From Fodinibius salipaludis (GTDB lineage: Bacteria; Bacteroidota; Rhodothermia; Balneolales; Balneolaceae), in contig NZ_NSKE01000007.1 of assembly GCF_002287075.1 (NCBI RefSeq), positions 186,001 through 250,000 on the forward strand: a DNA stretch of 64,000 bases, in the 5' to 3' direction. The first letter of the stretch is position 1. Each line of letters begins with the position of its first letter. Position numbers and translations under genes: made by a program. The notes below the pieces were generated by a model. It was given only the letters and a program-made list of their open reading frames with translations. It did no database searches and had not been told where the DNA came from. This document shows positions 3,910-47,819 of the stretch, piece by piece.

Positions 3910-3954
3910 AATTGTAGGTGTAACCAAAATATTTATGTAAATAGTTTACGGTTT

Positions 3955-7377: not shown

Positions 7378-7386
7378 AAGAACCTC

Positions 7387-8383: not shown

Positions 8384-8385
8384 GG

Positions 8386-22310: not shown

Positions 22311-23894
22311 CTATTTGAGCTCATTTTCTATGCGAGTGAAAAAATCTCCTGTTTCTACTGATTTTCTAGCCTTATATTTTAATACTTCTCTAAGATCAAT
22401 TTTATGCTTGAGCATACTTTCAATTTCATCTCCCAAAATACCTAATAATTTGGTGCTCTTACCTTCTCGAAAATTTTTTAGACAACCATCAGTAAATGGT
22501 GATATTGAAATAAATATTCCTCTTGCCCAAGAGGCCTTGCTGTCTACTTTAACTTGGAAATTATTGAGGTGTTTTGCTTCAATATTTTTATCCTGCCATT
22601 TAGCTTCAATGAGATACGCATTACCTTCAAAATTAAGGCTTCCATCAATTTGTTCGCCTACGTTTTTAAATGGCTTTCTAGGCTCTAAGCTATAGGTCTT
22701 AAATAATTCATTAAGAAAGTCCTCAAAAGCATATCCTCTAGGATGTGGCTTAAGTTTCTTTATGTCCTGAAATCTATCATTGAGCCGATCTAAAATAAAT
22801 GGATACTCATTATGATCTAAGAGTTGATATTTTTTATTGTAATGTTCTCTTTCATATTTATCATCAAGTTTGACGAGCTTATGATAGTACTTCAAAAAAA
22901 CTGGATCATGCTTACCTTTTACCTTGCCTAAGTGCTCAAGCTTTCCCTTTATAACTTTGTCCAGTGGTGGCTTACTTCTTTCTGGGTTTATGCCTGGATT
23001 ACAGTATTCTCTGTGAAACGTATCTTCAGCATTTTCATAGCCGAATTTTTCCCATGCGTGTAACATAGCTCGAATCTTTCGTACATATGAACGATTGACA
23101 TTTGTAAATTCATTTACTGTTATACCCGTGACTTCTTGCCTTTGAGAAGAATTCATCAACTTGACCTTATCATGATTTACTTCAAAACCATTGTCATTAA
23201 TAATTTCTTCCAATTCACTGCCAACTATTGTTTGCCCAGCATCATTTATTTTAGCTAAAGATTTGGGAAATACAGGTATTGTAGTTGAGAAAGTTAGATC
23301 ATCAGCATACCTAGTATAGGTCACCTTATGTTTCTTTGCTAAGCGAGTCAGTTCAGAATCCAATTTTGCACAAATAAAATTAGAAATAACTGGTGAGGTT
23401 GGGGCACCTTGAGGTAATGAATTTTTAAAAATGCAAATCTGGGCTAAAACTGTTGCTGCTTCTTCAGGAAGATTAAATGGTTTAGCCTGAAATAATCCCC
23501 AAACTCTTCCAAAGTTGATGGAAGGAAAAAAGTCTTTAATATCTACATTTAAAACATACTTTTTATCAGTATGCTTAGAGGCGCCTTCTACTATATCCCG
23601 ATCATTAACAAAACCATAGACACAAACTCTAGGGTTATAAAAAAGTCTTAGTATATGATTAAGTTTTTGCTGTAATATTTTTAAAGAATCATTAGGTGCT
23701 GAAATACTACGAGTACCACCTGATCTCTTGGGTATTTTAAACTCGTTGTATTTCTTTTCATCATCCAGTATGTATAAATAGTACTTAAGCTTATCAGAAG
23801 AAATCTCAAGTAAATCAGAAACTTCCCTGAGACTCTTAAGATTAGCAAACTTCTGTTTTAACTCTCTATTTGAATAATTTAATTCTACATCCAT
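22311..23894 (-). CDS. Retron-like reverse transcriptase fused to a restriction-nuclease domain
   Basis: 527 residues from ATG 23894; a GTG at 23909 would add five. The first 320 or so residues are a reverse transcriptase: VLNVDIKDFFPSI, LPQGAPTSPVISNF, the active-site YADD in TYTRYADDLTFS near residue 195, and VTGITVN, the VTG motif characteristic of retron RTs. A helical linker follows. From about residue 385 there is a PD-(D/E)XK (Mrr-like) nuclease domain, with RGYAFEDFLNELF, the Asp in EQIDGS and EAK in LIEAKW. A fused nuclease would be the effector of a retron or abortive-infection RT. It is the outermost cargo gene at the left end of the element, and a candidate msr-msd lies directly upstream. 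Confidence 0.88.
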   Translation of the reverse strand: MDVELNYSNRELKQKFANLKSLREVSDLLEISSDKLKYYLYILDDEKKYNEFKIPKRSGGTRSISAPNDSLKILQQKLNHILRLFYNPRVCVYGFVNDRDIVEGASKHTDKKYVLNVDIKDFFPSINFGRVWGLFQAKPFNLPEEAATVLAQICIFKNSLPQGAPTSPVISNFICAKLDSELTRLAKKHKVTYTRYADDLTFSTTIPVFPKSLAKINDAGQTIVGSELEEIINDNGFEVNHDKVKLMNSSQRQEVTGITVNEFTNVNRSYVRKIRAMLHAWEKFGYENAEDTFHREYCNPGINPERSKPPLDKVIKGKLEHLGKVKGKHDPVFLKYYHKLVKLDDKYEREHYNKKYQLLDHNEYPFILDRLNDRFQDIKKLKPHPRGYAFEDFLNELFKTYSLEPRKPFKNVGEQIDGSLNFEGNAYLIEAKWQDKNIEAKHLNNFQVKVDSKASWARGIFISISPFTDGCLKNFREGKSTKLLGILGDEIESMLKHKIDLREVLKYKARKSVETGDFFTRIENELK

Positions 23895-23910
23895 AAAAAA
23901 GGCACCCACT

Positions 23911-24720: not shown

Positions 24721-25716
24721 ATGGAAGCCGATATACTTCCCATAGCACAAGAAAATCTTAAAAAGCTTACTCAATTTAAGCTAGAAATTGAGGGACGAGA
24801 GAAGTATATCCAGGATGGACATCAAGTAGATGCGAAGGTGAAGCTACACCTTCCAGATGAGACATTGGAGTTTTTTACAGAAATAAAGAAAGAAGTCCGA
24901 ACCCACCAGCTACCCAAAATTTATGAGTTGGCCAAAACCAATAAGCCATTTCTGTTAATTGGAGGACAAATTTTCCCGAATATAAAAGATAAGCTGAAAA
25001 ACAAAGGGATCAACTGGATTGATGGTGCTGGTAATATGTACATCAGAACCAAAGATCACTTCCTCTTGGTAGATCACAACGAGACATTCCATCTTAAAAC
25101 TGAGAGAGATCGAGCCTTTACTAAAACGGGATTAAAAGTAGTCTTTTTATTTCTTCTCGATGAAGAGTGGATTCAAAAAACGTATAGAGAAATTGCCAAA
25201 GCTGCAGATGTAGCATTGGGTACCATTGGTTATGTCATTAATGGACTTAAGAAAAGAAAGTATCTGGTTAAAAAGAACGAAAAGAACTATCAGTTAGTCG
25301 GTAAAGATGCATTAATTGATGAATGGATCGGTGCTTATGAACAAGAGTTAAAACCTAAGCTACACAAAGGTACATTTGCCTTCATTGATAAAGAAGAGGC
25401 TACTAATTGGAAAAAGATGGAACTTGATGCCCAAACAGTATGGGGTGGAGAGGCTGGTGCAGATTTACTTACTGGAATGTTAAAGCCACAGACTCTGACT
25501 CTTTTTACAACTCACACTAAAGGTAATATAATGAAGAAATTTAGGCTAAAGCCTGACCCTGATGGTACCGTTCAAGTTTACGAGCCATTCTGGAAAATTG
25601 AAGTGGGAAAAGAAACTGCTCCTCCTTTGGCAATCTATGCAGACTTAATCTTAACGGGCGATGAACGCAATTTTAAAATAGCTGAAAAAATATATGGCGA
25701 GTTCATACAAGATTAA
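24721..25716 (+). CDS. AbiEi-like antitoxin/transcriptional regulator
   Basis: A 331-residue protein. The N-terminal half (1-110) is a mixed alpha/beta region with VDAKVKLHLPDETLEFFTEIKKEV and KPFLLIGGQIFP. Next comes a winged-helix segment (about 135-190: TYREIAKAADVALGTIGYVINGLKKRKYL). The C-terminal part has WGGEAGADLLTG and PPLAIYADLILTGDERN, which are typical of AbiEi-type antitoxins of type IV toxin-antitoxin systems. It overlaps the nucleotidyltransferase gene by 23 bp, the usual pairing, and carries a palindromic operator directly in front, consistent with autorepression. Confidence 0.8.
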   Translation: MEADILPIAQENLKKLTQFKLEIEGREKYIQDGHQVDAKVKLHLPDETLEFFTEIKKEVRTHQLPKIYELAKTNKPFLLIGGQIFPNIKDKLKNKGINWIDGAGNMYIRTKDHFLLVDHNETFHLKTERDRAFTKTGLKVVFLFLLDEEWIQKTYREIAKAADVALGTIGYVINGLKKRKYLVKKNEKNYQLVGKDALIDEWIGAYEQELKPKLHKGTFAFIDKEEATNWKKMELDAQTVWGGEAGADLLTGMLKPQTLTLFTTHTKGNIMKKFRLKPDPDGTVQVYEPFWKIEVGKETAPPLAIYADLILTGDERNFKIAEKIYGEFIQD

Positions 25717-26533
25717 GTTATCTAGTTTTAACCAAGAAGGGCTAAAGGATGTTATACAAATACTTGAAACAGTTTTTCAAAAATTTGATGTAGATTTTTA
25801 TGTCATTGGAGCATTAGCTAAAGATATGTGGCTGTCAAAAGAGAAAGTTCAAACCAGAGCTACGAGAGATGTCGATTTAGCAATATTTATTTCGGAGTCG
25901 CGAGATTATGAAGAAATCAAGTCTACACTAATTAAAGAACATGATTTTAAAGAAGTCTCAACGAATGCCTTTGCCTTACTGACACCTTATGGTTATCCCG
26001 TTGATCTGCTCCCATTTGGATCCGTAGAAATTGATGAAGCAGTCGAAGTAGAGGGAGGCGGACTAACAAAGGTTCACGTTAATGGCTTTAAGGAAATTTA
26101 CCAACAAGGCCTGGCACCTATCTTAACTGATGAGGGCCTTACTTTTAAAGTTGCCTCCCTTGCATCCATTATTTTACTAAAATTAATCGCCTTTGATGAC
26201 CGCCCGGAAAAACGCACTCAAGATATTAAAGATGTTGGCATTATAATCCACCACTATTTTCATATAGAGAGTAGGCTGATATATGACAAACATAACGATT
26301 TGTTTACCCAGGGAGATTTTGAATTGATCGATATTGCAGCTTACGTGATTGGCCGAGAATTGAATGCTATTATTTCTGATAATGAAACTTTGAGAAACCG
26401 AGTACTAGATATTCTATCGCTATCTGAAAAGTATCATCACAGAATTCCCGAATTAATGGCCCAAAATGCAAAGCTTACTGTTGAGCAATCCAAAAAAATA
26501 TTGAGAGAAGTGGCACAAGGAATTAAGCAATAA
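25694..26533 (+). CDS. AbiEii-like nucleotidyltransferase toxin
   Basis: A 279-residue nucleotidyltransferase-fold protein. The active-site pattern is visible: FYVIGALAKDMW (helix glycines) followed by TRATRDVDLAIF, with Asp59 and Asp61 as likely metal ligands, and a third acidic strand in YPVDLLPFG. In type IV systems such enzymes (AbiEii family) are toxic and are counteracted by the neighbouring AbiEi protein, which overlaps this gene by 23 bp. It is not a recognisable CD-NTase: the surrounding sequence fits the AbiEii/MNT group better. Confidence 0.82.
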   Translation: MASSYKIKLSSFNQEGLKDVIQILETVFQKFDVDFYVIGALAKDMWLSKEKVQTRATRDVDLAIFISESRDYEEIKSTLIKEHDFKEVSTNAFALLTPYGYPVDLLPFGSVEIDEAVEVEGGGLTKVHVNGFKEIYQQGLAPILTDEGLTFKVASLASIILLKLIAFDDRPEKRTQDIKDVGIIIHHYFHIESRLIYDKHNDLFTQGDFELIDIAAYVIGRELNAIISDNETLRNRVLDILSLSEKYHHRIPELMAQNAKLTVEQSKKILREVAQGIKQ

Positions 26534-26608: not shown

Positions 26609-27358
26609 TCAACCTAAAATCTGTTCATTAGTCTCTTTTAAAAATTCTTTTACTTCATCCCATTTATTACGGCGTAGGCTATATCTTTTCAGGGTACTTA
26701 GATTTACATCATATTTGTTAACTATATTACTGTAGATGTTTTTAAGCTCTTTTCCCTGAAAGGCATTAAATAAAACCTCGTCCGCTACCAGATCAACCAT
26801 TATTTTTTCCAACTTAGGGACCTGGATTTCATTTACCGTCATTAAGGGAGACTGACTGATTAGCGACCGGACTACCAAAGGATTTTCTGAACTACCTAAA
26901 TATTTATGTACTTCATCTTTGCTGGGATTAAGAAACACCCCGGAATCTTTTCGAATATCTTGCAGGCAATAAAAAACGGACTCTTCAGTATCTCGCTCAG
27001 TATCGACGAGAGTAAAATATTTCGTGGGCAGATGCTGCGTAAAGTTTAAAAGCCACTTTGTTGACCAAATACAAAACGTGAGGTATAGGAACTCATTTTG
27101 GAGCTTGGAAGTAATAGTTTTTAACTCTTTAGATATATCTGGCTTCCATTCCCTAACTTCTGATCCAAGCTTATACACACCTCTTTTTACCCTGCTAAGA
27201 ATAGCTTTGTTATTTAATTCGTAAATACGCCATCTTAATGTGCTTCGGGGTAGGTCTGGCTCTTTTTCTTTATAAAATTGATATAACTCTTCTATTGAGA
27301 CCGTTTTTTGGTCCCTAAATCGATTTTCTAATTCTTCTATATAGAATGTTTCAGCCAT
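26609..27358 (-). CDS. Lone AbiEi-like winged-helix regulator (DUF6577-type)
   Basis: A 249-residue protein starting MAETFYIEELENRF. Residues 15-65 form a winged helix (SIEELYQFYKEKEPDLPRSTLRWRIYEL, then AILSRVKRGVYKLG). The remainder has the WSTKWLLNFTQHLP, FTLVDTERDTEESVF and PLMTVNEIQVPKLEKIMVDLVAD blocks of AbiEi-like antitoxins. No toxin-type nucleotidyltransferase lies next to it on the same strand. I chose ATG 27358 rather than 27424 because a 16-bp inverted repeat, evidently the operator, fills the space between the two. Confidence 0.72.
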   Translation of the reverse strand: MAETFYIEELENRFRDQKTVSIEELYQFYKEKEPDLPRSTLRWRIYELNNKAILSRVKRGVYKLGSEVREWKPDISKELKTITSKLQNEFLYLTFCIWSTKWLLNFTQHLPTKYFTLVDTERDTEESVFYCLQDIRKDSGVFLNPSKDEVHKYLGSSENPLVVRSLISQSPLMTVNEIQVPKLEKIMVDLVADEVLFNAFQGKELKNIYSNIVNKYDVNLSTLKRYSLRRNKWDEVKEFLKETNEQILG

Positions 27359-27367
27359 AGTTATTTT

Positions 27368-27408
27368 CAAATTATTGTCAAATATAAGAATAATTTGACA
27401 ATAATTTG
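27368..27408. promoter_or_regulatory. 16-bp inverted repeat operator
   Basis: CAAATTATTGTCAAAT (27368-27383) and its exact inverse ATTTGACAATAATTTG (27393-27408) are separated by 9 nt. The site lies 10 bp before the ATG of the minus-strand AbiEi-like gene, so binding would block its transcription or translation. It is the natural target for the protein encoded next to it. Confidence 0.75.
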
Positions 27409-27506
27409 GACACTCTTGCAGCATGCGGGTTTAAATTTTCGCAGATAAGTCAATTAAACATTGACTTAAATTGATTTTTTTAAACCATTTGTTCACTAAT
27501 ACTTGC

Positions 27507-28387: not shown

Positions 28388-28717
28388 CTATTTATCTTGT
28401 TTTCTACTCACCAACCATTCCTCTATATCTGACCTAAGCCAACCGACTGCATGACTTGAGATCTTAACCTTATCCGGGAGTTGATCATCAGATTGCATCT
28501 TATATAAAGTCGATATGCTTATCGAAAGCATATTGGCCAACTCCTTAGGCCTGATTATTTTGCTTTGTGATTGCCTCCTATCTTTGGTGACATTACGATT
28601 TTTAGATTTAGATGTAATAGAATTCGAAATTTCTTCTTTGAAGTCTTTAAGCTCTTCTCGAATGACTTTCCTTACCGCTTCCTCAATAGTTTCCCTTAAA
28701 TAGGTTTCAATGTTCAT
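28388..28717 (-). CDS. AlpA-like helix-turn-helix regulator
   Basis: A 109-residue protein. Its first 35 residues are an amphipathic helix (YLRETIEEAVRKVIREELKDF) likely used for oligomerisation. The last 55 form a MerR/excisionase-type helix-turn-helix: IRPKELANMLSISISTLYKMQ, KISSHAVGWLRSDIEEWL. AlpA-like proteins regulate or assist excision in satellites and integrative elements. An inverted repeat at 28736-28763, directly upstream, may be its operator. The similar 97-residue protein at 51583 has the same two-part layout. Confidence 0.82.
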   Translation of the reverse strand: MNIETYLRETIEEAVRKVIREELKDFKEEISNSITSKSKNRNVTKDRRQSQSKIIRPKELANMLSISISTLYKMQSDDQLPDKVKISSHAVGWLRSDIEEWLVSRKQDK

Positions 28718-28981: not shown

Positions 28982-30100
28982 ATGGCTGTTCACAATATCT
29001 CATGTTTTCCGCTAGGAAATGCTGACACTTCTTTTATTCAATTAGATAATGATAAAACAATACTTGTCGATTTTGCCAATCGGGGTGATCAAGATGATGA
29101 GGACAACAAATACTCGGACTTATCAAAAGAGATAAGGGAAAAATTAGGGGACAAAAATGAAATAACTGTTGTTACACTTACTCACCTTGATGAAGATCAT
29201 GTTTATGGTTTTTCAGATTTCTTTTATTTGGAGTATGCTGATAAATATCAGGATGAAGATAGAATTCATATCAATGAACTCTGGGTCCCAGCAGCTGCCC
29301 TTACTGAAGAAGGTTTGACAGGTGATGCTAGAATAGTACGACAGGAAGCTAGACACCGACTAAAAAATAAATTTGGTATAAAGATCTTCTCGAACCCAAA
29401 ATATTTAAAAGAATGGGCAGAAGAAGAGAACGTTGATTTAGATGAATACTCCAATTTATTTGTGGATGCGGGAACCATAGTTAAAACATTTAATAAACAA
29501 GATGATTTAATAGAGTTTTTTACTCATTCCCCTTTTGCTTCTCGGAATGAAGAAGGAGAGCTAATTAATCGAAATAAGGATTCTATAGCGATAAACGCTC
29601 GATTTTATACAGAAAATCAATCTACAACTTCTGTCAACTTGTTTTCGGATTTAGAGTATGATGATATCGAGCGAATAATCAATATTTCTGAATATCATGA
29701 GAATGAAGATCGCTTAGAATGGGACATCTTCCATCTACCCCATCACTGTAGTTATAAAGCCCTGAATGAAGAAAAGGGAGACGAGAAGACAACGCCTACT
29801 GAAAAAGTGCAAAAATTGTTTGAGGATTATTATGAAATAAATCCATTGATCATTTCTTCAAGTGAACCCACTGAAAAAAATGATTCAGATCAGCCTCCAC
29901 ATAAAGAAGCTGCGAACTATTATCGAGAAATCGTATCTGATAATAGTGGTAAGTTCTTAGTTACAATGGAGCATCCCAATATTTCATCTCCCGAACCTAT
30001 AGAAATTGAAATTTCAGATCATGGCTATGAGATCAAAAAAGAAGTTACTACGGGGGCTGCGACAATAGCGGGAAGTAAAGCTCGAAGAGCTGGTAATTAA
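28982..30100 (+). CDS. Metallo-beta-lactamase-fold hydrolase linked to the E2-E1-JAB operon
   Basis: A 372-residue soluble MBL-fold protein of the ComEC/Rec2-like kind without membrane segments. Metal-ligand motifs are THLDEDHVYGF (His68, Asp72, His73 in HxxxDH order) and FHLPHHCSYKAL (His254/His255). The C-terminal 60 residues add a strand-rich extension ending AGSKARRAGN. The substrate is unknown (nucleic acid, nucleotide or lipid are possible). It starts the operon: the next gene begins 3 bp after its stop. MBL proteins next to E1/JAB fusions were noted in comparative-genomic surveys of bacterial ubiquitin-like systems. Confidence 0.85.
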   Translation: MAVHNISCFPLGNADTSFIQLDNDKTILVDFANRGDQDDEDNKYSDLSKEIREKLGDKNEITVVTLTHLDEDHVYGFSDFFYLEYADKYQDEDRIHINELWVPAAALTEEGLTGDARIVRQEARHRLKNKFGIKIFSNPKYLKEWAEEENVDLDEYSNLFVDAGTIVKTFNKQDDLIEFFTHSPFASRNEEGELINRNKDSIAINARFYTENQSTTSVNLFSDLEYDDIERIINISEYHENEDRLEWDIFHLPHHCSYKALNEEKGDEKTTPTEKVQKLFEDYYEINPLIISSSEPTEKNDSDQPPHKEAANYYREIVSDNSGKFLVTMEHPNISSPEPIEIEISDHGYEIKKEVTTGAATIAGSKARRAGN

Positions 30101-30103
30101 AAT

Positions 30104-32332
30104 ATGGAACAGGAATATTATACAACTGATGGTAATAGTATATCAGAAGAGGAGTTGTCCAGTGCTAAAGCAAAAGCTGTATTAGAGTTAATTAAAAATC
30201 CTAATTTGGATAATTTTTTTCTGGTAGAGGTTAAGGCAAATGATGATTTCGATGTAATAGTATTTGATATATTTCCCCAAGTTCCGCAGAAACCATCAAA
30301 TGATATAAGAAGTGTAGAAAGAATAGCTACACATTTTCACAAGCAAGATAAAGAGCGTCCTGGAGCCTACGTACTCAGAAAAGATTTTCCAGAAGTCAAA
30401 CATATTTATAATCCAAAAGGAGACAGCGCCAAACAATTATGCTTAACTATTGAACCATATATCGAGGAAAAGTACTATTGGACAGCTTCTGGTTTCTTAA
30501 AATCCATATTTAATTGGTTGAGCAAAACTTCAAAGGGTATTCTCCATGAAGAAGATCAACCTTTAGAAGAATTCTATTTTGAATCTCCCCACAGGATATT
30601 GCTGCCCAATTTATTTTTCGATAATAACGTAGATGAAATTGATAAGGGTTTCATTTGTCGAAAACTGTATCAAGAAAAAAATCAGACAATTGCTTTACTA
30701 GATAATCCTGATAAAAACCCTGATCAAAAGCTACTAAATATTTTCATATTTGAGACCCCACCAGTAGTACATTCTATTCCACAAATTCCTTCCTACAAGT
30801 TAGGATCTCTTCATCAAGAATTACAAAAGATAAACTTTAACCTTGCCTCAAAATTAGCTACTAAACTTTTTGCCTACGCTGAGCTTGAAAAACTAAATCC
30901 TGGAAATGGACTTATTCTTCTTGTAAGAATACCAAAGAAAAGAGATATAGATAGTGAAATTGAAGAATATGAGCTCCAAGCGTTTTTCTTGGAAAAGAAC
31001 CTTAAAGAAACAATCAAAATTCTTGGATTGAAAACAAATCATGGTAACATCGTTTTAGGAGATTATGACCCTAATAATCTTTTAGATTTGAGTTTATTAC
31101 CATTAAATCCTACCCCGTACTTAACACCTAGTAAAGCATTAGAACATAACGGATTAGAAAAAGATATTGAGCAAAGAATATCACTAATTGGTTTAGGCGC
31201 ACTTGGTTCTCAAATTGCAGATAACATTTATAGATCAGGCTTTAATAAACTAAGTTTAATTGATCATGATAAATTGTTACCTCATAACTTAGCTAGACAC
31301 ACTTTAGATGGGACTCATCTAGGTGAGTTCAAAGTAAAAGGTATGAAGAATACTTTATCATCAATATTTGAGAATAATAAATTGAGAACTTTTACTGAAA
31401 ATGTTTTACATCAATTGTCGGATGATCTAAAACAAGAGTTAGAAAACTCTGACCTAATTTTAGACTTTTCAGCTTCTAATATTGTTTCAAAATATATATC
31501 CAATAATATAGTAAGTAACGCTCCCAGAATTTCCTGTTTTTTGAACCCAAATGGAAAAGATTCTATACTGATAAAAGAAGATTTAGACAGGCATTATCAA
31601 TTAGATACATTAGAATTAGATTACTATAGGGGAATCTACAGGCGTTCAGAACTTCACAATCATTTAGATATCTCTCAATCTCGAATTGGCTATGCATATA
31701 ATTGTCGGGATGTATCTTCACAAATGCCTCAAATTAATGTTGCTCAACATTCAGCAATATTATCTAGATCCATAATTAACTCTTATAATAAAAACTGCCC
31801 ATTAATATCGATATGGCGAACTAACCAAAAGGGGGAAACTAACCGATTTGATTTAGCATGCCATAAATACCAAACTATAAACCATAGAAATTGGGAAATT
31901 AAGATTTCGTCATCAATCCTTGAAAAAATCTATGATGAACGAAGTAATAAATTACCAAATGAGACCGGTGGAGTACTAGTTGGGTATATAAATACTAAGG
32001 ATGAAATCATTTATATATCTGATAGTCTAAAATCACCTTCTGACAGCATTGAATATCCTGACTCATATACTCGGGGAAAAAACAACCTTTTAGAGGAATT
32101 AGAAAAGTATGATAAGGTTACGGCAAATCAGATTACTTACATTGGTGAATGGCATTCACATCCAGATAATTGCAGCGTGGACCCAAGTCCAGATGACAAA
32201 AAACTTTTCGAATGGTTAAAAACATACCGGGAGATCGATTCCCTTCCGCCTGTTATGCTTATAGTCGGTGATGATAATAGACTAAATTTTTTAGTAGAAG
32301 AAGTGACAAACTCAGAAATACTATATGCCTAA
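30104..32332 (+). CDS. E2-E1-JAB triple-domain ubiquitin-like conjugation protein
   Basis: A 742-residue fusion. Residues 1-170 look like the bacterial E2 found in such fusions: KQLCLTIEPY, with Cys113 as likely catalytic cysteine, then FNWLSKTSKGILHEEDQPLE. Residues 350-590 are an E1/ThiF adenylation domain with the nucleotide loop GLGALGSQIADNIYRSGF near 364, LIDHDKLLPHNLARH, and Cys534 (AYNCRDVSSQ) as possible transfer cysteine. Residues 610-742 are a JAB/JAMM isopeptidase with GEWHSHPDNCSVDPSPDD intact. One chain could therefore activate, transfer and remove a peptide tag. No separate ubiquitin-like protein was recognised nearby. It overlaps the patatin gene by 8 bp. Confidence 0.87.
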   Translation: MEQEYYTTDGNSISEEELSSAKAKAVLELIKNPNLDNFFLVEVKANDDFDVIVFDIFPQVPQKPSNDIRSVERIATHFHKQDKERPGAYVLRKDFPEVKHIYNPKGDSAKQLCLTIEPYIEEKYYWTASGFLKSIFNWLSKTSKGILHEEDQPLEEFYFESPHRILLPNLFFDNNVDEIDKGFICRKLYQEKNQTIALLDNPDKNPDQKLLNIFIFETPPVVHSIPQIPSYKLGSLHQELQKINFNLASKLATKLFAYAELEKLNPGNGLILLVRIPKKRDIDSEIEEYELQAFFLEKNLKETIKILGLKTNHGNIVLGDYDPNNLLDLSLLPLNPTPYLTPSKALEHNGLEKDIEQRISLIGLGALGSQIADNIYRSGFNKLSLIDHDKLLPHNLARHTLDGTHLGEFKVKGMKNTLSSIFENNKLRTFTENVLHQLSDDLKQELENSDLILDFSASNIVSKYISNNIVSNAPRISCFLNPNGKDSILIKEDLDRHYQLDTLELDYYRGIYRRSELHNHLDISQSRIGYAYNCRDVSSQMPQINVAQHSAILSRSIINSYNKNCPLISIWRTNQKGETNRFDLACHKYQTINHRNWEIKISSSILEKIYDERSNKLPNETGGVLVGYINTKDEIIYISDSLKSPSDSIEYPDSYTRGKNNLLEELEKYDKVTANQITYIGEWHSHPDNCSVDPSPDDKKLFEWLKTYREIDSLPPVMLIVGDDNRLNFLVEEVTNSEILYA

Positions 32333-33791
32333 TAAGGATATTAAAATTGGCCTAGCTCTTTCGGGTGGTGGTTTTCGGGCCTCAGCTTTTCATCTCGGAG
32401 TCTTAAAAAGACTTGAGGAATTGAAGATATTACCTCATCTCAGTAATGTTTCTGTAGTATCGGGAGGAGCAATAACAGGTGGTTTATACGCTTTAAAATG
32501 TGCAAATCATGGTAATGGGCATCCCGGAAGTTATCCTATAAACAATCTGATTCGAGATTTGAGGCCAGTTTTTGAAATGAATTTAAGGAGGAGTTTTTTA
32601 TGGGGTTCAACAGGGCGAACTTTAAAAACTCTTAAATCATTTGTTTCAAAAAACACTTATCGAAATACTAATTTCGTTAATGAACTCAATAATCAGTTAT
32701 TCAATTACGAAACACTCGACAAACTTCCAGATTGGATCCTAATAAATGCCACCAACTTAACGACCGGGAAAAATTGGAAATTTTTCTCTGATCGAGTTGG
32801 AGATTACTTAATTGGTGCAACTGATAAGACTGGAAAAATCCAACTTGCTGAGGCTGTAGCTTCTTCAGCGGCATATCCGATTATGGTTGATCCTTACCCA
32901 TTTAAAACAAACTGGGAGGATTTGAAATTCAGCTTATTGGATAATCGATGGAGACAGCCCCCAAAGAATAAAAAAACAAATACCAGCCAATGGAGGAAGA
33001 GATTTGGAAAAGCAAAAGGAAAACTTACACTTCCAATTGTTGATGGTGGATTATATGATAACCTAGGTCTCAATAGTTTACAATCTTCTCGAGTTACACA
33101 TGCTATTTATTCTTCCTCTTCAACTTTACAAAAGTATTATGGACCAAGTAATCTAATAACTGAATTATTAAGAGAGATAGGAGTCGTTCACGAACGGCTT
33201 GGAAATGTTTCTAAGCAACATATTCACGAAATGACCCACGCCTATGACCCATCTAAAGCCAATAAAAAACTTAAAGATATATCAAAGATTCTCTCAGAAA
33301 AAGCAACAGAACATCATGACTCTGAACTGGATAAAGTGTCCAAATCGATCAACGAGCTATCCAAGGTTGGATTTCCGCCACGAGGGCATCAATTTAAGAA
33401 ATATGCTCCTATCCAACTCATTAAAACAGATTTAGCAACCAATAGATATGCAGAGTTTGATCCACCATATGACGTTCCCGAGAATTTTCGTGGCTTAAGT
33501 GTACCTCTAGTTAAGGAATTAGCTCGGGTTAGAACTGATTTAGATGCTTATCAACGAGAAGTAACTGATTTGTTAATGGTTCAAGGGTATTTTTTGACGG
33601 ATGCTCAAATCAAGGTCTCTATGCCTGAAGTAATTAATTTTTCACTTGGAACTGATCACCCATTAGATGTAACACCAAAATGGGATAAAGCTCATGAAGT
33701 TATCTCAAAATTTAATGGAAATATAGATTATGGTAAGGAATTATTAATCAATGCCTCCAAAAGAAAACCAATATTAGGAAATTCACTATAA
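32325..33791 (+). CDS. Patatin-like phospholipase, presumed effector
   Basis: A 488-residue patatin-family lipase without a signal peptide. The oxyanion-hole motif is SGGGFRASAFHLGVL (residues 13-27). The nucleophile is Ser46 in VVSGGA; the usual first Gly of G-x-S-x-G is Val here. The catalytic Asp lies in VDGGLYDNLG near residue 240. The C-terminal 230 residues are not the core lipase and may be a sensor or partner-binding region. Patatins of this kind (CapV) kill infected cells in CBASS by cutting phospholipids. Its start lies inside the end of the E2-E1-JAB gene, so the two proteins are made together. Confidence 0.87.
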   Translation: MPNKDIKIGLALSGGGFRASAFHLGVLKRLEELKILPHLSNVSVVSGGAITGGLYALKCANHGNGHPGSYPINNLIRDLRPVFEMNLRRSFLWGSTGRTLKTLKSFVSKNTYRNTNFVNELNNQLFNYETLDKLPDWILINATNLTTGKNWKFFSDRVGDYLIGATDKTGKIQLAEAVASSAAYPIMVDPYPFKTNWEDLKFSLLDNRWRQPPKNKKTNTSQWRKRFGKAKGKLTLPIVDGGLYDNLGLNSLQSSRVTHAIYSSSSTLQKYYGPSNLITELLREIGVVHERLGNVSKQHIHEMTHAYDPSKANKKLKDISKILSEKATEHHDSELDKVSKSINELSKVGFPPRGHQFKKYAPIQLIKTDLATNRYAEFDPPYDVPENFRGLSVPLVKELARVRTDLDAYQREVTDLLMVQGYFLTDAQIKVSMPEVINFSLGTDHPLDVTPKWDKAHEVISKFNGNIDYGKELLINASKRKPILGNSL

Positions 33792-33853: not shown

Positions 33854-34882
33854 TTAATTCCACTGTTTCCCACCTAACAAGTCTGCAAGCTTTTGGCTAC
33901 TTATTTCAACATCAAATCCATCAATTTCTTTAAGTAGCATATACTTTTTCTTTCTCAATCCCCCATGAGAGACTTTTAGAAAATTAGTATCATGAAATTT
34001 ATCAACTACAAAAAATCTTTTCCCCCTACTTAAATCATAATAATCTGTATTTCTAATAATACCAATGATAGCCATTTTATTTTCATCTGATAAGTTCTCA
34101 AATACTTCCTCGTAGCCTTCTGCTGCGGTTAGTTTCCCATTAATTAAATTACAGGCCACAATATATTTTACTTCTCCGACTCCTCTGATAGCTTTATTTT
34201 TGTATAAACCTAAATATTTAAAATTCCTTGTATGAGTTCTATCAATTGGATCGTAGTACACATCATATTTTCGGTTTTCTTGGTACGAATCACCAGTAGG
34301 AGCTACCAACATTCTATATTTTTCTAAAGAGATAACTCCCTTTTCTTGGCATAGACTATCATAATCTGCTATGATTTCTTTCATTGTCAATTCATGCTCA
34401 TGCAGGACTTCTTCAAAGTTTAATATAATCTCCTCGTAGGTTACAGTGGCAAAGTTTACGTTGGTAGATTTTTGTGGATACCTTTCTTTAATTTTACTTT
34501 TTATCGTTTTTGAACTAGCCTCAGACACTTTTTCTTTTGTAAGAGCCAGCAAAATTCTCTCACTATTATTATCTGTAAAAGCTTCAATATGATCTAATAA
34601 TTGCCCTTCCCTAAGTTCTCCATGTGGTTTAGCCTCAATTAATATTCTAAATCCCTTTTGATATATATGCCCATCAGGCACACTACTATATTCCCTAACT
34701 TGTTGTTCGAAATCAGGACCGATAGAAATGGATATATTCTCTTCTGATCCTATAAGACCTTCCAAAAAATCTTCGAACCTCTTGGAATCATGGTTATATA
34801 GATATTGAAAAAGTAGGAGTGTACTATTAGTAAGCCAATTTTCTGGTTTTGAATATCTTTGAAAGTAGTGTGTAGCACCCAT
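33854..34882 (-). CDS. PD-(D/E)XK nuclease-like protein
   Basis: A 342-residue protein. Residues 50-90 hold a likely nuclease core: SVPDGHIYQKGFRILIEAKPHGELREGQL gives the P-D...E-x-K arrangement. The rest is mixed alpha/beta, with GVGEVKYIVACNLI and RGKRFFVVDKFHDTNFLKVSHGG in the C-terminal part. I do not know a named family for it. It faces away from the patatin gene (convergent) and is divergent from the small helical gene at 34931, so it is probably a separate defence or accessory unit. Confidence 0.72.
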   Translation of the reverse strand: MGATHYFQRYSKPENWLTNSTLLLFQYLYNHDSKRFEDFLEGLIGSEENISISIGPDFEQQVREYSSVPDGHIYQKGFRILIEAKPHGELREGQLLDHIEAFTDNNSERILLALTKEKVSEASSKTIKSKIKERYPQKSTNVNFATVTYEEIILNFEEVLHEHELTMKEIIADYDSLCQEKGVISLEKYRMLVAPTGDSYQENRKYDVYYDPIDRTHTRNFKYLGLYKNKAIRGVGEVKYIVACNLINGKLTAAEGYEEVFENLSDENKMAIIGIIRNTDYYDLSRGKRFFVVDKFHDTNFLKVSHGGLRKKKYMLLKEIDGFDVEISSQKLADLLGGKQWN

Positions 34883-34930
34883 AGATTATAACCTTATAAT
34901 TTTTAAACTTCTGAGTAAATAACGTTAAAG

Positions 34931-35329
34931 ATGGCTCTTAACGAACAAGATTATTTTGAAATATTGTATCACTTGCAAGAGGAAGTGGCAGGTAATGAAC
35001 CACAATTGGCAAATAACTTTCTAGAGATATCTAATAATATAATTGAAGAATACGAAGATCCCCGCAAAATACTTATCCACAGTCTGGAAAGGCTAATAGA
35101 GTTGTTAGAGCAAGAGTCCTCAAATACCTACGAAAATGTATTAACAAACTTGAACAATTTTGTAGAAACTGAGGAAGGTCAAAAAATTGATGGGATACAT
35201 GTTGAGTTATCTCCTAAACAAAAAAAACTATATCAACAAGATTACATTGACCTGTCAGAGATGAAAAGTCAAGAAACTATGATTTCAGAATTGAATGAAA
35301 TAATAGAAGAAATAAGGTCAAATAAATAG
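34931..35329 (+). CDS. Small helical protein paired with a nuclease-like gene
   Basis: A 132-residue acidic, almost wholly helical protein (LYHLQEEVAGNEPQLANNFLEISNNIIEEY, then ILIHSLERLIELLEQ). I do not recognise it. It is 12 bp upstream of the 35342 nuclease-like gene on the same strand and is likely its partner, as an inhibitor or subunit. No catalytic motif is visible. Confidence 0.65.
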   Translation: MALNEQDYFEILYHLQEEVAGNEPQLANNFLEISNNIIEEYEDPRKILIHSLERLIELLEQESSNTYENVLTNLNNFVETEEGQKIDGIHVELSPKQKKLYQQDYIDLSEMKSQETMISELNEIIEEIRSNK

Positions 35330-35341
35330 TAGCCACCTAAC

Positions 35342-36019
35342 ATGGACAAGGAAGATATTAAAAAGAAAATAACTAGCACCTTTCAAAAATATACTAAGGC
35401 CAATAATACAAAGGCAGCGGATGTTATAACTAACTCACTTACCTCAGGTAAGCTTTATGAAGCATTTATACTTAGTCGTGTCGCTGAGCAGCTAGTAAAA
35501 AAAGAAGGATTAAAATTAAAATTAGTAAACAGCAAATATTTAAAGCTAAAAACCTCAGCTGGTAAAATTGATCGTACTAAACCAAGATTTAATGTATATA
35601 AGTCAGGTAATTGTATAGCTGAGATTTGGACTGATATTGAATTTACAACCCTTAGCTATGCTAAGGATTCAAGCTTCACTTCACCGGATCCAGGTCAATA
35701 TCATGAGCTTGATATTGTTGTTCTCGATCCAAACTTATCAGGCCGCCCAGGCTATGATCAAATCTGGTTAGGAGTTGAATGCAAGAATACCAGTTATGAA
35801 AAAGGATTGTTAAAAGAAATTCTTGGAATAAGAAGAGAATTGAGTCTCTTAAGAAGCACTCCTCAACAAACAAAATTTAGCAAATGGCCAAGAAAAAATG
35901 TACCCGCAGACCCATCTTCTTGTTTACTGGTTTATTCAACCGATGCAAATGTTCAAAATTATTCTTCCCCAGGTGATTTGTTTGGTATAGACTTTTACTT
36001 TGAACCACTTAACCCATAG
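35342..36019 (+). CDS. Putative PD-(D/E)XK-type nuclease
   Basis: A 225-residue protein. A helical N-terminus (1-65) precedes a strand-rich core with HELDIVVLDPNLSG and WLGVECKNTSYEKGLL, which gives the E-L-D ... E-C-K catalytic layout of restriction-type nucleases; a helix GIRRELSLLR follows. No DNA-recognition domain is obvious. It is 12 bp downstream of the small helical gene and ends 9 bp before the convergent brxL stop, so it borders the BREX operon. Its function beyond the fold is inference. Confidence 0.65.
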   Translation: MDKEDIKKKITSTFQKYTKANNTKAADVITNSLTSGKLYEAFILSRVAEQLVKKEGLKLKLVNSKYLKLKTSAGKIDRTKPRFNVYKSGNCIAEIWTDIEFTTLSYAKDSSFTSPDPGQYHELDIVVLDPNLSGRPGYDQIWLGVECKNTSYEKGLLKEILGIRRELSLLRSTPQQTKFSKWPRKNVPADPSSCLLVYSTDANVQNYSSPGDLFGIDFYFEPLNP

Positions 36020-36028
36020 TAATTAGAA

Positions 36029-38080
36029 CTAATCTATCAAAATAGCTTTCTGCATCAACATCTGACTGTTGGAGTAGAAAGGCACATCAGTAGAGCCAAC
36101 TACACTTTGGGGAATAGAGGCCATCTCAGATAAATTATCCATTGGAGAAATCACCGTTTTTGCTCCATTTTCAGAAAGCATGGTTACTTTATCTGTGAAA
36201 TTATTTGACCGTTCGATAGCACCACCGATAGAAATATTACCAAGCACCGCTAAACCAGCCTTAAGGTTTTGATTGTATAGATCTGAAAGGACTGCAATAT
36301 AAGTTGCAGATCCAACCCCAGAATTAATTTTATCACCCAGCAAATTGGTTATCTGTACATGAATATCGAAGTTTGAAAGGCTATGCTGTTCGTTTAATAT
36401 CTGATCCTCATTAGCCTTAATATATTGATAGGTATTCTTAATATTCTCTTTTACATCTCTATCTGAGGTACCTGAAATATTTAATTTGCCAGACCCCTCA
36501 GTTGTTACTACTTCTAATCTTACTACGGAGAAATTTACTCCATCTCCTGTACATGTATAGCATATACCAGGCTTTAGTGGGGTATTTTCTATGAGCTGAG
36601 TTCCCTTTTGTTCAGGCAAGCCAACAAACGTCTCCTCTTGGTTATCTTTGTCTATGAAAGAGAAATTTGTATCCCAGAACTCCATTCCCCCAATCCTTTT
36701 AAGCTGTTCCTTAACCCTTCTCCGCATTTCTATAGCAAAGGTTACGTATTCTCTAATATCTTCTTTCGTATAATTACCGTCAGGATGTAGCAACTTTATA
36801 AACCCAGAAACAGTTTTCTTAACCGGCTTGGTGTCTCGTTGCTTTAAATGGGAGCCCAAAGAAAAGTATTCTTCAAGCGCATCGGTATAGTTTTCTCTCC
36901 TTTTGCTTTTAAGTACCTCGGAAAAGAAATCAGTGCTAAATCCAAAGTTAGAAGTGAAGTTCTTATTTGAAAACTTCATGATCTCCCAGCCAGGCAAGTA
37001 AAAATGGATTCTATCTAAGAATGCAGTATCAGAGTTCACTTCCTCTGAAAGGGGGCTAAATAAGTGAGAGGTTTGTAAAACCGTTTGAACAGGCTGATTA
37101 ATATTTCCATTAAGTATTACAGATGCATTACCTGTAATTTCACCGCCTGCTCCAGCTCTTGAGAAGGAACCTGATTCCATGTAATCCTTCATTAACGGTG
37201 TAGCATCCTTATCTTTAAATAATTGGTCTGTAGCTTCATCAAAACAGATAGCATCCCATTGCCCTACCGCGCCAACTCTACCTGTATTACCATGGACAAA
37301 AAGTTTAGCCACAGTACCTTGGCCACCTGATATAAGCACTGCATAAGGGGTAAGCTCTTTGTAAACAAAGGATTTACCAGTTGATCTTGGCCCCAACTCC
37401 ACTAAGTTAAAATTGGACTCTACAAGAGGCAATAGACGGGATAACAATAACATCTTAATTCTATGTGTCATCCCTTCAGAAGAAGGCTCATAGCCACTAC
37501 TCCTGAGCAAGACATTCATCCACTCCTCTTTGCTAAACTCTTTTCGCTTATTATTTACTTTTGAGACGTCAAATGAGGATAGCTGAATTGGCTTAATGTC
37601 TCTGATTACAAAGGGATAGATAGTATTACCCACTTTAATATTTGGATCGTATTCGACATCCATAATGGCCCATATACCACCCATCAGCATCTTGTCGTGA
37701 TCTAAGACCAACGAATCTCGAATTACAGCGTCCTTAATGTTGCTGTTATGTAAATACGCCCAATATTTATCTTTCTTGGGGTCTAATTTCACCTCAATCT
37801 TATCGATGATCTTGTAGCTACCAGCTTCCCGAATTTTGGAATGAATCAGATCGCTCTCCTCAGGGTTCACATAATGCTGAGAAAGAATGTTTTTCACATT
37901 CTCCATTCCCTCTTTGATCTTCTCTTCATCGTTGGTGGAGCAAGAGTTGGCAATCAGGTATTCCAATACAAAAACGGGAACATTCGCACCTACTTTAACC
38001 CGCCTGACAAGATCTTTCTTAACTACAAATCCCCGAAAGTGATCTAATAATTTTTCGTCTAAACTGTCTAATGTGATCAT
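36029..38080 (-). CDS. brxL: BREX type 1 BrxL (Lon-like AAA+ protein)
   Basis: A 683-residue protein: an N-terminal domain (1-200), an AAA+-like core with Walker A GPRSTGKSFVYK and Walker B AICFDEATDQ, sensor-like residues in DRIHFYLPGWEI, and a C-terminal Lon-protease-like domain with GVGSATYIAVLSD and IGGAIERSNNF. BrxL is the signature last gene of BREX type 1 and is needed for phage exclusion. It is 10 bp downstream of pglZ and the length is normal. Confidence 0.95.
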   Translation of the reverse strand: MITLDSLDEKLLDHFRGFVVKKDLVRRVKVGANVPVFVLEYLIANSCSTNDEEKIKEGMENVKNILSQHYVNPEESDLIHSKIREAGSYKIIDKIEVKLDPKKDKYWAYLHNSNIKDAVIRDSLVLDHDKMLMGGIWAIMDVEYDPNIKVGNTIYPFVIRDIKPIQLSSFDVSKVNNKRKEFSKEEWMNVLLRSSGYEPSSEGMTHRIKMLLLSRLLPLVESNFNLVELGPRSTGKSFVYKELTPYAVLISGGQGTVAKLFVHGNTGRVGAVGQWDAICFDEATDQLFKDKDATPLMKDYMESGSFSRAGAGGEITGNASVILNGNINQPVQTVLQTSHLFSPLSEEVNSDTAFLDRIHFYLPGWEIMKFSNKNFTSNFGFSTDFFSEVLKSKRRENYTDALEEYFSLGSHLKQRDTKPVKKTVSGFIKLLHPDGNYTKEDIREYVTFAIEMRRRVKEQLKRIGGMEFWDTNFSFIDKDNQEETFVGLPEQKGTQLIENTPLKPGICYTCTGDGVNFSVVRLEVVTTEGSGKLNISGTSDRDVKENIKNTYQYIKANEDQILNEQHSLSNFDIHVQITNLLGDKINSGVGSATYIAVLSDLYNQNLKAGLAVLGNISIGGAIERSNNFTDKVTMLSENGAKTVISPMDNLSEMASIPQSVVGSTDVPFYSNSQMLMQKAILID

Positions 38081-38090
38081 AGTATTTCGT

Positions 38091-40316
38091 TTATAATAAA
38101 CCGCCTAAATCTCGGCTAGATGATTTCTTTACTTTTACTTTATCTAGATACTCTTTGGTTTCATCATCAATAACTTGGGCATGCACTTCCTTATTCCCAT
38201 CAAATGAAAACTCTCGTTTTGCACTGTCTCCAGATTCCAAACTGATGACATCACTGGAAGCAATTTCTTCCTCACCTGCATATATGAGTACTCTGTATTT
38301 TCTTTCGAGTGAAAACAGATCCTGTCCACCTTTTGGTGTTCTTAACTTAATCTCAAAGTATTCGCCTTCAACTTGGTCAAGGTCTGCTTTGTTAGTAATC
38401 TCAACCTTTAGCTTCTCAACTGTGGTACCACTCGAAAATTTAAAGCAGGGTACGATCAGTTCTTGAGGGGAAGCCCCACCATGAGCAAAGCCATATACAC
38501 CGGTTGTTTTGAAAGATCGCAAGTTTTTAGATACTACCAGGTGATCGTATTCTAAATAGGATTTTTCAATGGTAAACAGATTATTTGATTCCTGAGGCTT
38601 TTCTTTTAACGACACATAACGTTCTCCTTTTGAATGGTCTCCATTTGCATTGTACTCGATCTTATCAGATTCTTTTAAGATGCCTGTCAAAACAAAGCCA
38701 TGATCCGATACCAGGTAGATGTTTTGAAAACCCAGTTTTTCTAATTCTACAATCTTTTCTGCAAGCGTATCTTTAATTGTTTCCAGATACTTCAGGGCTT
38801 TTTGCTGCATTTTCTCACCGATATCATCAATATCTTTGTAACTGCAAACAGCTACATCAAAATCTGATATGCTGAGGGTGATATGCTCAAGATCAACGAA
38901 GGTAATACGCTTATCAGAAAATTGTTCCTTTAAGAACTTTTCTCTTTTACTTTTTTCTTTAGTCCAGCTCCCGTCCGACATATACATTCTGCTCATATTA
39001 TTGTCGGTCACTGAGGGTAGATCAGCCAACATCGTATCCTTTTCAACCTTTAGCCTGTGATCTACGCTTTCAACAATATCCTCTGCAATTTCATAGGTAA
39101 TACCATCTCCAACAATAATTGCCAGAGATTCTGAATGTTTCTCAACCAGCTGTTTGAAAAGTCCCGTTTGCTCTTCTTCATAGCCCTCAAAATAGTTAAA
39201 CCATTTGTCCAACAGCTCGTTGACCATTGAGGTATAACGTTCTTGCAAAGGCTGCATTAAAGCCTCATCGTGCAAGAATTCTGCGTAAAGGTTGCGAACC
39301 GAACGGTCTAATTTATAGAAGGTTTCCGTATAGTATGCTTTAGCCTCTTCAAATGAGTTGATAGTCTTAATGCCAGAATAATCAAAGTCGATAACTCCAA
39401 GTACACTTGACCACCAATCTATGCCACATAGATGGGCATATTGGTTCTTAGCTCTTCGTTTAATGTATGGAATTTTTTCTTCGAGGAAATCCTCGTCTCC
39501 CAAATTCGACACGATTTGTCTGAGCTGCTCTCTATCCACCCTATCAAACGGATGATCTGGATGAACTGGCCAAATGTCTGTAATATCTTTCTGTGAAAAA
39601 TGGTCTAAATACCTATTGAAAGATTTCCTATAGGTCGTGCTGTCGATCCATTGCCGGTAAATATTCAGCATCAGGTCATCAATGTCATGATTGGCTAATC
39701 CGTTAAGCATATACAGAACTGTCTCTTCAGCAACTGTTTCTGCAGGTTTCGACATTGGTTGCTGGCCAATTGCTTTCTGAACCTTCTCCAAAAAGGCTTC
39801 TTCTACCTCTGGGTCCATTCCACCTACATACGACTCCGGATTATCCAGAAATTCGACCAGCATCGTAGAAAGATCAAAGATTTCTCCCGATCCTTTTCGG
39901 CTCAAATTCAGCCAGTAATCTTTCTTTTCACCAACAGAGACTTTAGCTGCTGTCAATAACTTATCTTTTTCCAGATCAAGGTTTAGACCAATTTTTTGGT
40001 GTACTTTTTTCTTGATGTAGTGATGGAGCTGTGCCAGATCCAAATATCCGTTAATTTGTGCATACTCCATCAAAAAGGTGAGCTCATCAGCAGGAATAGT
40101 AGAATAAACAACAACCTTTTTACCCTTATCTGATTTTTCAATCTTATACTTGGCCTTCAGCTCTTCTATCTTAGATGATGCCTCATACACCTTCCAGTTT
40201 GATGGCAGGCTTTTCAGCAAGTATTTACCCAGCCTATTCGGATCACAGACTACAAACCGATCACCGGATTCATCAAATGCTTTTTGAATGTCTTCTTTAA
40301 ACCAGGTTTCTATCAT
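38091..40316 (-). CDS. pglZ: BREX type 1 alkaline phosphatase-like PglZ
   Basis: A 741-residue PglZ protein. The alkaline-phosphatase-superfamily core is visible from about residue 390: LAIIVGDGITYEIAED, VCSYKDIDDIGE, YLVSDHGFVLTG and AHGGASPQELIVP. The N-terminal half is helical. PglZ is the one component shared by all BREX types. Its ATG overlaps the TGA of a 52-codon frame (40313-40471) by 3 bp, so its translation is probably coupled to that frame rather than directly to pglX. Confidence 0.95.
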   Translation of the reverse strand: MIETWFKEDIQKAFDESGDRFVVCDPNRLGKYLLKSLPSNWKVYEASSKIEELKAKYKIEKSDKGKKVVVYSTIPADELTFLMEYAQINGYLDLAQLHHYIKKKVHQKIGLNLDLEKDKLLTAAKVSVGEKKDYWLNLSRKGSGEIFDLSTMLVEFLDNPESYVGGMDPEVEEAFLEKVQKAIGQQPMSKPAETVAEETVLYMLNGLANHDIDDLMLNIYRQWIDSTTYRKSFNRYLDHFSQKDITDIWPVHPDHPFDRVDREQLRQIVSNLGDEDFLEEKIPYIKRRAKNQYAHLCGIDWWSSVLGVIDFDYSGIKTINSFEEAKAYYTETFYKLDRSVRNLYAEFLHDEALMQPLQERYTSMVNELLDKWFNYFEGYEEEQTGLFKQLVEKHSESLAIIVGDGITYEIAEDIVESVDHRLKVEKDTMLADLPSVTDNNMSRMYMSDGSWTKEKSKREKFLKEQFSDKRITFVDLEHITLSISDFDVAVCSYKDIDDIGEKMQQKALKYLETIKDTLAEKIVELEKLGFQNIYLVSDHGFVLTGILKESDKIEYNANGDHSKGERYVSLKEKPQESNNLFTIEKSYLEYDHLVVSKNLRSFKTTGVYGFAHGGASPQELIVPCFKFSSGTTVEKLKVEITNKADLDQVEGEYFEIKLRTPKGGQDLFSLERKYRVLIYAGEEEIASSDVISLESGDSAKREFSFDGNKEVHAQVIDDETKEYLDKVKVKKSSSRDLGGLL

Positions 40317-40471
40317 ATTAACTGTTTTATCTGATCGTTCATCTTGGTCAGTAGCTTGGTCACATCTTGGTCATTAACTTGGTCACTCCATCGTAACTTT
40401 TCATGCTGTTGACAATTATGAACTGATATGAAGTAGGGATAATATTCATCTATATTAAATGCAAGGATCAT
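40313..40471 (-). CDS. Overlooked 52-residue protein between pglX and pglZ
   Basis: ATG at 40471 follows the pglX TAA (40472-40474) with no gap, and the TGA (40313-40315) overlaps the pglZ ATG. The product begins MILAFNIDEYYPYFIS and ends in a charged, probably helical stretch (SDQVNDQDVTKLLTKMNDQ). The perfect fit into the only 150-bp gap of the operon makes real translation likely. It is not a known BREX subunit. The four TTGGTCA repeats visible here on the plus strand are the DQ/TK codons of this frame. Confidence 0.6.
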   Translation of the reverse strand: MILAFNIDEYYPYFISVHNCQQHEKLRWSDQVNDQDVTKLLTKMNDQIKQLI

Positions 40472-47814: not shown

Positions 47815-47819
47815 ATAAA

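Follow-up and report, generated by a model that had tools for sequence, protein, structure and literature searches.

Here we describe a three-gene operon in a 64,000-nucleotide stretch of the Fodinibius salipaludis genome (contig NZ_NSKE01000007.1, positions 186,001 to 250,000; hereafter the window, whose own numbering is used throughout), and suggest that it is an immune operon resembling the cyclic oligonucleotide-based antiphage signalling systems (CBASS), in which the enzyme conjugated through its C-terminal Gly would be a metallo-beta-lactamase (MBL) fold hydrolase and not a CD-NTase, a reading to which we give a probability of roughly three in four. The operon is made up of three open reading frames (ORFs) on the + strand, encoding the MBL-fold hydrolase (372 aa; 28982..30100), a single-chain E2-E1-JAB conjugation/deconjugation enzyme (742 aa; 30104..32332) and a patatin-like phospholipase that is the predicted exchangeable effector (488 aa; 32325..33791), with 3 bp between the first two and an 8-bp overlap between the last two. 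The same ORFs and spacing had been proposed in a first-pass annotation made from the DNA alone, and its domain calls all found matches in Pfam, with Lactamase_B (3.6e-05, 24.2 bits against a cut-off of 22.7) on the first protein, Prok-E2_A, ThiF and Prok-JAB on the second and Patatin (2.1e-14) on the third. It had further reported neither a CD-NTase nor a ubiquitin-like gene in the operon, and this also stands: the operon holds three ORFs only, no match to SMODS (PF18144) overlaps a related locus in the 80 genomes searched, and gaps of 3 and -8 bp leave no room in which a ubiquitin-like gene could be hidden. Where that annotation had left open whether the MBL protein is a sensor, a target or a nucleotide-processing regulator, the choice can now be narrowed, with the MBL most likely being what is conjugated, by way of its C-terminus, and hence the predicted modifier and signal enzyme.

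The last residues of the MBL protein, which the first-pass annotation passed over, read Arg369-Ala370-Gly371 followed by a single extra residue, Asn372, as checked at the level of the codons. This RAG motif (30086..30094, +) lies in a low-confidence tail defined by model confidence and homologue alignment (residues 353-372; 30038..30097, +), and in the AlphaFold model the predicted local distance difference test (pLDDT) scores fall to 56, 61 and 46 in successive blocks of residues 351-372; the mean for the protein is 90.8, with the body well modelled save for a loop near residues 190-200. Such poor modelling is as expected of a flexible tail. Among 81 MBLs encoded 5' of an E2-E1-JAB gene (two duplicate contigs having been removed), 73 have RAG within their last 16 residues. 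The first RAG is terminal in 41 of these 73 and is followed by one to eight residues in the other 32, five of which end in a second RAG, so that the tail of 46/81 MBLs is exactly a terminal RAG. The eight proteins lacking the motif comprise three with close variants of it (PKAG in two, PRVG in one), two ending in Gln-Gly (ISQG and ITQG), and those of loci L035, L089 and L108, where RAG and a stop codon within four residues of it appear in another frame, and which are probably frameshifts. In the alignment, about 15 variable linker positions precede sharply conserved columns at R369 (75/80), A370 (78/79) and G371 (77/79).

This tail is rare outside the MBLs paired with the enzyme. RAG occurs near the end of 3 of 1053 other ORFs at these loci (at least 60 aa, both strands, from our own gene caller), in none of 23 other MBL-like ORFs there, and elsewhere in the sequence of 1/81 MBLs, which rules out chance as its origin. 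Nor is it an artefact of the search, because the 80 genome loci were retrieved without using the MBL. A Gly by itself is weaker evidence than RAG, since six of the 23 other MBL-like ORFs have one in their last seven residues, terminal in one case. We predict Gly371 to be the conjugated residue, and thus the site of adenylation and of the thioester and isopeptide bonds, because the solved structures that the partner enzyme matches best are those of Cap2, in some of which the C-terminus of a CD-NTase is bound; by the same analogy, the JAB domain is predicted to trim Asn372.

The enzyme itself has conserved catalytic residues in all three domains. Pfam places Prok-E2_A (9.1e-13), ThiF (1.5e-16) and Prok-JAB (7.1e-11; residues 604-723) in this order along one chain, and the closest PADLOC models are those of the CBASS E1-E2 and JAB proteins. 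The E2 catalytic Cys113 (TGC, 30440..30442, +) is present in 85/85 aligned homologues and the E1 catalytic Cys534 (TGT, 31703..31705, +) in 86/86, as are the four residues of the JAB/JAMM isopeptidase domain, E620, H684-x-H686 and D698 (31892..32308, +, with estimated bounds). Both cysteines and the E-W-H-S-H-P motif claimed by the first-pass annotation are thus in place, with the two cysteines and two histidines invariant; part of the conservation near EWHSH and near RxDFPxxxH in the E2 domain is a selection effect, as the same peptides served as search patterns. The AlphaFold model is confident (pLDDT 88.9), and by both profile and fold its best match in the PDB is Cap2 (7to3), with Cap2 bound to a CD-NTase C-terminus (7tsx, 7tsq) among the fold matches, so that the E2 and E1 folds are recovered by structure prediction and the presence of E2, E1 and JAB on one chain is borne out by Pfam and by fold alike.

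A precedent is given in sections of PMC10097602 and PMC11153139, where Cap2 conjugates the CD-NTase through a C-terminal Gly or Ala. According to the former, Cap2 is joined to the C-terminus of the CD-NTase in a thioester and conjugates the CD-NTase to lysines, a reaction reversed by Cap3, and a terminal Gly or Ala is conserved in CBASS cyclases only in operons with Cap2 and Cap3; in another system, the latter names PspA as a conjugation target. By extension, we propose that the JAB domain would trim the residue after Gly371 (-RAG|N), that the E1 domain would then adenylate Gly371 and move the MBL onto Cys534, and that the MBL would be passed to Cys113 of the E2 and from there to a lysine or other nucleophile on a target protein or structure of the cell or the phage, with the JAB domain able to undo the conjugation. 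Conjugation might then place or activate the MBL, whose activity, either directly or via a small-molecule product, would turn on the effector encoded by the third gene; here the patatin would attack membranes and so stop infection. We infer the target and the trigger together with each of these reactions, and the step from MBL to effector is the weakest of them, being proposed because the effectors are exchanged between loci. More broadly, we lean with moderate confidence towards this being a second case of an enzyme used in the manner of ubiquitin, in which a ComEC-type MBL is conjugated via Arg-Ala-Gly and the conjugation module is plugged onto MBL-effector pairs as Cap2/Cap3 are onto CD-NTase-effector pairs. 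If true, conjugation of enzymes without the ubiquitin fold would be a general immune strategy and not a peculiarity of CBASS, and this would be the second such family, in which an enzyme of a very different kind is conjugated and the exact residue, Gly371, is predicted.

Further support comes from the way in which the type of tail follows the clade of the enzyme. In a divergent set of loci (L120-L123, L160-L162 and L165-L167) the MBL has a Gly within its last seven residues in 10/10 cases, exactly terminal in four, with tails such as IDHG, ISQG, LGHG and MPHG-AS. In a tree built quickly from 97 enzymes, the division between RAG (83 rows, taking in the PKAG and PRVG variants, the three frame-shifted loci and four plasmid loci) and other-Gly tails (9 rows; L161 was not placed) corresponds to a single change, with support of 99 in the Shimodaira-Hasegawa-like approximate likelihood ratio test (SH-aLRT). 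At one locus, G227, the eight MBLs that come closest to the MBL body (43-48% identity) belong without exception to the RAG clade, and the G227 enzyme is nearest to that of L013 in the other-Gly set (29% over 761 residues, 337 bits, the next match reaching 91 bits); the tail of the G227 MBL is ...IDHG and not RAG. Judged by sequence, G227 looks like a natural swap, where a RAG-clade MBL body is joined to an enzyme of the other set and carries the tail that matches the enzyme.

Additional MBL-like genes were seen around some of these loci. On the Rhodococcus plasmid of L161 (1774-5735), an MBL ending ...VGFGR lies beside a ThiF gene, and a TM-A protein (a partner type described below) is paired divergently with another MBL that lacks this kind of tail, so that both forms are adjacent. 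At L168 an ORF (2909-4099, +) with an MBL-type HxHxDH motif recognised by eye ends ...VWHG and converges on the G227 operon, and on the Hymenobacter plasmid of L127 two extra genes annotated as MBL-fold (1013-2173 and 7244-8671) flank the operon, near WYL and ATPase genes.

The pairing of the two genes is widespread and nearly constant. From a scan of genome contigs that returned 476 relatives, the best 80 by similarity to the window E2-E1-JAB were kept, and with viral contigs and loci gathered earlier these gave 88 loci with a long E2-E1-JAB ORF, the window included. An MBL gene was called directly 5' of the enzyme in 82/88; at L103 and L083 it was found by tblastn, and the remaining four loci (L003 and L037 on one contig, L090 and L111) begin at the ends of three contigs, such that an MBL is present at every locus not starting at a contig end. 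The conserved order and fusion that the first-pass annotation had proposed looking for are hence found for the MBL and E2-E1-JAB genes. Rows of the family span 15 named phyla, in which the catalytic sites are intact, and ten further rows carry no phylum name. Within 394 sampled genomes of the Fodinibius phylum the MBL has matches in eight, one of them marginal (9.4e-4); the E2-E1-JAB protein matches somewhere in 174, nearly all of these being short ThiF or JAB pieces. Divergent E2-E1-JAB proteins occur in 3/398 genomes at E 1e-30, IMG/VR holds six related loci, and a phage collection gave a single partial match. Family members about 30% identical to the window enzyme occur on Klebsiella and E. 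coli plasmids: the Klebsiella-type version has matches in 229 plasmid records and in 31 of 5426 E. coli genomes, of which 175 and 29, respectively, span the greater part of the protein, and these members bring a test of what would now be a testable immune system within reach of an ordinary laboratory.

In contrast to this constant pair, the third gene varies. The window patatin has Ser46, Asp240 and a GGGxR motif, with S46 and D240 kept in 31/31 patatin homologues, and it matches the PADLOC CBASS phospholipase effector (1.1e-06). Patatin is, however, not the invariable partner of the enzyme, as the first-pass annotation had it, but one of at least five that are exchanged. Under a strict rule applied to 85 loci (the window and two duplicates set aside) the partner is patatin at 30, TM-A at 18, TM-B at 7, TM-C at 6, TM-D at 3 and other or none at 21; with wide offsets on either strand at 86 loci, the window now included, the counts are patatin 31, TM-A 18, TM-B 9, TM-C 8, TM-D 6 and caspase 1, with 13 unassigned. 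The transmembrane (TM) labels are BLAST clusters with hydropathy counts and the caspase label (L072) comes from Pfam. The next partner gene follows within 28 bp in 49 of 60 cases. Mapped onto the enzyme tree, the five partner labels require 22 changes over 72 rows, against a mean of 36.4 when shuffled, from which it follows that partners are inherited locally and often exchanged. TM-A and TM-B also adjoin MBLs with no E2-E1-JAB in the stretch read, which is about 3.5 kb at L158 and L159, where the enzyme could lie further away, and 10.7 kb at L163; none of these three MBLs has a terminal Gly, that of L159 having one five residues before its end. By analogy, TM/MBL pairs with and without E2-E1-JAB appear to parallel CBASS with and without Cap2/Cap3.

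Several points weigh against our reading. The evidence consists of sequence and single-chain models, and the 80 genome loci, as the best of 476, are a non-random sample with several near-copies. The Gly trait of the divergent set is looser than RAG and is shared by 6/23 of the other MBL-like ORFs (terminal in 1/23), and the C-termini of L123 (...GFGSYNE), L162 (...TYGSKPI) and L165 (...AHGCRNKDS) are less clear-cut as tails for conjugation. G227 is a single case: L013 aside, BLAST does not bring its enzyme closer to the other-Gly set than to those paired with RAG tails, and its grouping rests on L013 and the tree. Moreover, none of the five partner families is represented at 14/86 loci (the 13 unassigned and the caspase) with wide offsets, or at 21/85 under the strict rule. 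Finally, the closest PADLOC models of the MBL are RTasMBL, LmuA and Avs1a, and the MBLs of LmuA and Avs1a are ones that we take to be effectors, so that the window MBL may be a killing enzyme and not a maker of a signal.

This last point leads to the most serious alternative, which we nonetheless regard as unlikely: that the MBL itself kills, for instance as a nuclease, with conjugation merely tethering it to phage or cell structures and the third gene an accessory. The top solved fold match of the MBL model is the ComEC MBL domain (9ic4, Z 23.6), with phosphorylcholine esterase and proteins of RNase Z/J type ranking next, and together with the LmuA and Avs1a matches this would suit a killing enzyme, as would the 13/86 loci without a recognised partner and a conserved metal site, with H68, D72, H73, D223, H254 and H255 invariant in the aligned homologues (76/76 to 79/79) and D70 kept in 68/76. 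The model thus points to a ComEC-type MBL-fold hydrolase, although sharing a fold does not fix the substrate. Against a killing MBL, the third genes are tightly coupled to the operon (49/60 gaps of 28 bp or less) and of membrane or lipase type, and the fact that they are swapped while the MBL stays the same points to an upstream role for the MBL. It is considerably less probable that RAG is a docking peptide for E2-E1-JAB or a localisation signal, the C-terminus of some other protein being the one conjugated. A binding peptide would fit the conservation of RAG beyond its Gly and the residues that follow the first RAG in 32/73, but 46/81 tails end exactly in RAG, the other clade keeps just the Gly, MBL and E2-E1-JAB are the sole constant genes, and the JAB domain fused to the enzyme could remove the extra residues, in the way that other modifiers are trimmed by processing proteases. 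A type II CBASS that has lost its CD-NTase and kept the MBL as a passenger might be suggested by E2-E1 and JAB sequences closest to those of CBASS and by a patatin of CBASS effector type, but we reject it as very improbable, as no match to SMODS (PF18144) overlaps the loci (17/80 genomes have a match elsewhere, and the Fodinibius genome has none), the catalytic sites are intact across 15 named phyla, and an MBL is found at every locus not starting at a contig end.

The search behind this last statement used PF18144 as the one CD-NTase profile, and of its matches in 17/80 genomes 15 were over the cut-off and none overlapped an E2-E1-JAB locus, so that a CD-NTase is far from always adjacent. Compared with type II CBASS (a CD-NTase, the Cap2 E1-E2, the Cap3 JAB and an effector such as CapV), the conjugated-MBL operon that we favour shares an E2-E1 homologous to Cap2 with both cysteines, a JAB, an effector of patatin type and, near some family loci, CapH/CapP-like and WYL regulators; the conserved Gly on the probably flexible tail of its MBL would be a further common trait. 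It differs in that a CD-NTase is missing from the operon, the tail belongs to an MBL, the JAB is fused to the E2-E1, the Gly comes after Arg-Ala, and trimming would be needed for many tails, namely the 32/73 with residues after the first RAG. The PADLOC candidate PDC-M48, which pairs a TM protein (M48A) with an MBL (M48B), is likewise related, with L074, the representative of TM-B, matching M48A and L039 matching M48B through its second MBL, but at L158/L159 the pair has no E2-E1-JAB within about 3.5 kb and an MBL that lacks the terminal Gly; M48A (PDLC04670) has no match in the Fodinibius genome, where the partner is patatin, and is rare in the phylum sample (2/394). Bil and Bub share the logic of E1, E2 and JAB in antiviral or putative immune operons. 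Both use a gene for a beta-grasp ubiquitin-like protein, for which the window operon, considered by itself, has no room, and the model of the MBL has the MBL fold.

The core of the operon has been known by sequence since 2006, so that the first-pass description of the system as undescribed holds only in part. In their account of operon type 6a, a portion of PMC1779556, Iyer, Burroughs and Aravind 2006 catalogue a usually two-gene and uncharacterised arrangement of a single-chain E2-E1-JAB adjoining a 'specialized' metallo-beta-lactamase gene; the window operon has both traits and hence the same core, and that portion is silent on the tail of the MBL, on any exchange of effectors and on regulators of defence. 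A one-sentence mention from 2026, with no further description alongside it, places seven such operons behind capK/capS, and these probably belong to the E2-E1-JAB/MBL family. What appears to be new is the proposed role of the MBL as the conjugated protein: the sections of literature searched, including those of PMC7159879 and PMC11354881, mention neither the MBL tail nor a conjugated MBL, with an earlier mention elsewhere being possible.

The window operon lies in a defence island, as the first-pass annotation had suggested checking, since an AbiE-type pair and a reverse transcriptase (RT) gene are found to its left and a bacteriophage exclusion (BREX) set to its right, a context that would fit an anti-phage role. 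The AbiEi/AbiEii-type toxin-antitoxin pair (24721-26533, +) was identified by Pfam and the BREX genes brxL, pglZ, pglX, brxC, brxB and brxA (36029-49101, -) by profile matches. The RT (22311-23909, -; RVT_1 2e-24) has a C-terminal match to an Mrr-type restriction endonuclease domain (PF04471, 2.8e-06), and its nearest PADLOC models, over the RT part, are RT-TIR_XII and RT-Protease_XI, which makes an RT-nuclease fusion of retron or defence type possible; no Rfam match lies beside it, and at the gathering threshold Rfam finds two tRNAs and nothing else in the whole window. Between the patatin gene and brxL, three genes encoding 342 aa (-), 132 aa (+) and 225 aa (+) (33854-36019) have no Pfam match above cut-off. 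Among the window neighbours scanned with Pfam and PADLOC we saw no match to CapH, CapP or WYL. At related loci, upstream neighbours, mostly divergent, form clusters at 8, 7 and 6 loci, where the single representative scanned for each cluster was CapP-like (capP 2.6e-40), a WYL protein (7.4e-08) and CapH-like (7.8e-09). In plasmid pSE11-2 of the commensal E. coli SE11, the genes for a hypothetical protein and for a WYL protein run divergently to those for the MBL and E2-E1-JAB, and at the corresponding place a Klebsiella plasmid encodes a TM-D-like protein. In the window itself, the island also contains a DUF6577 protein (26609-27424, -; Pfam 3.5e-75), and an AlpA-like regulator assigned by Pfam (28388-28717) is divergent from the operon.

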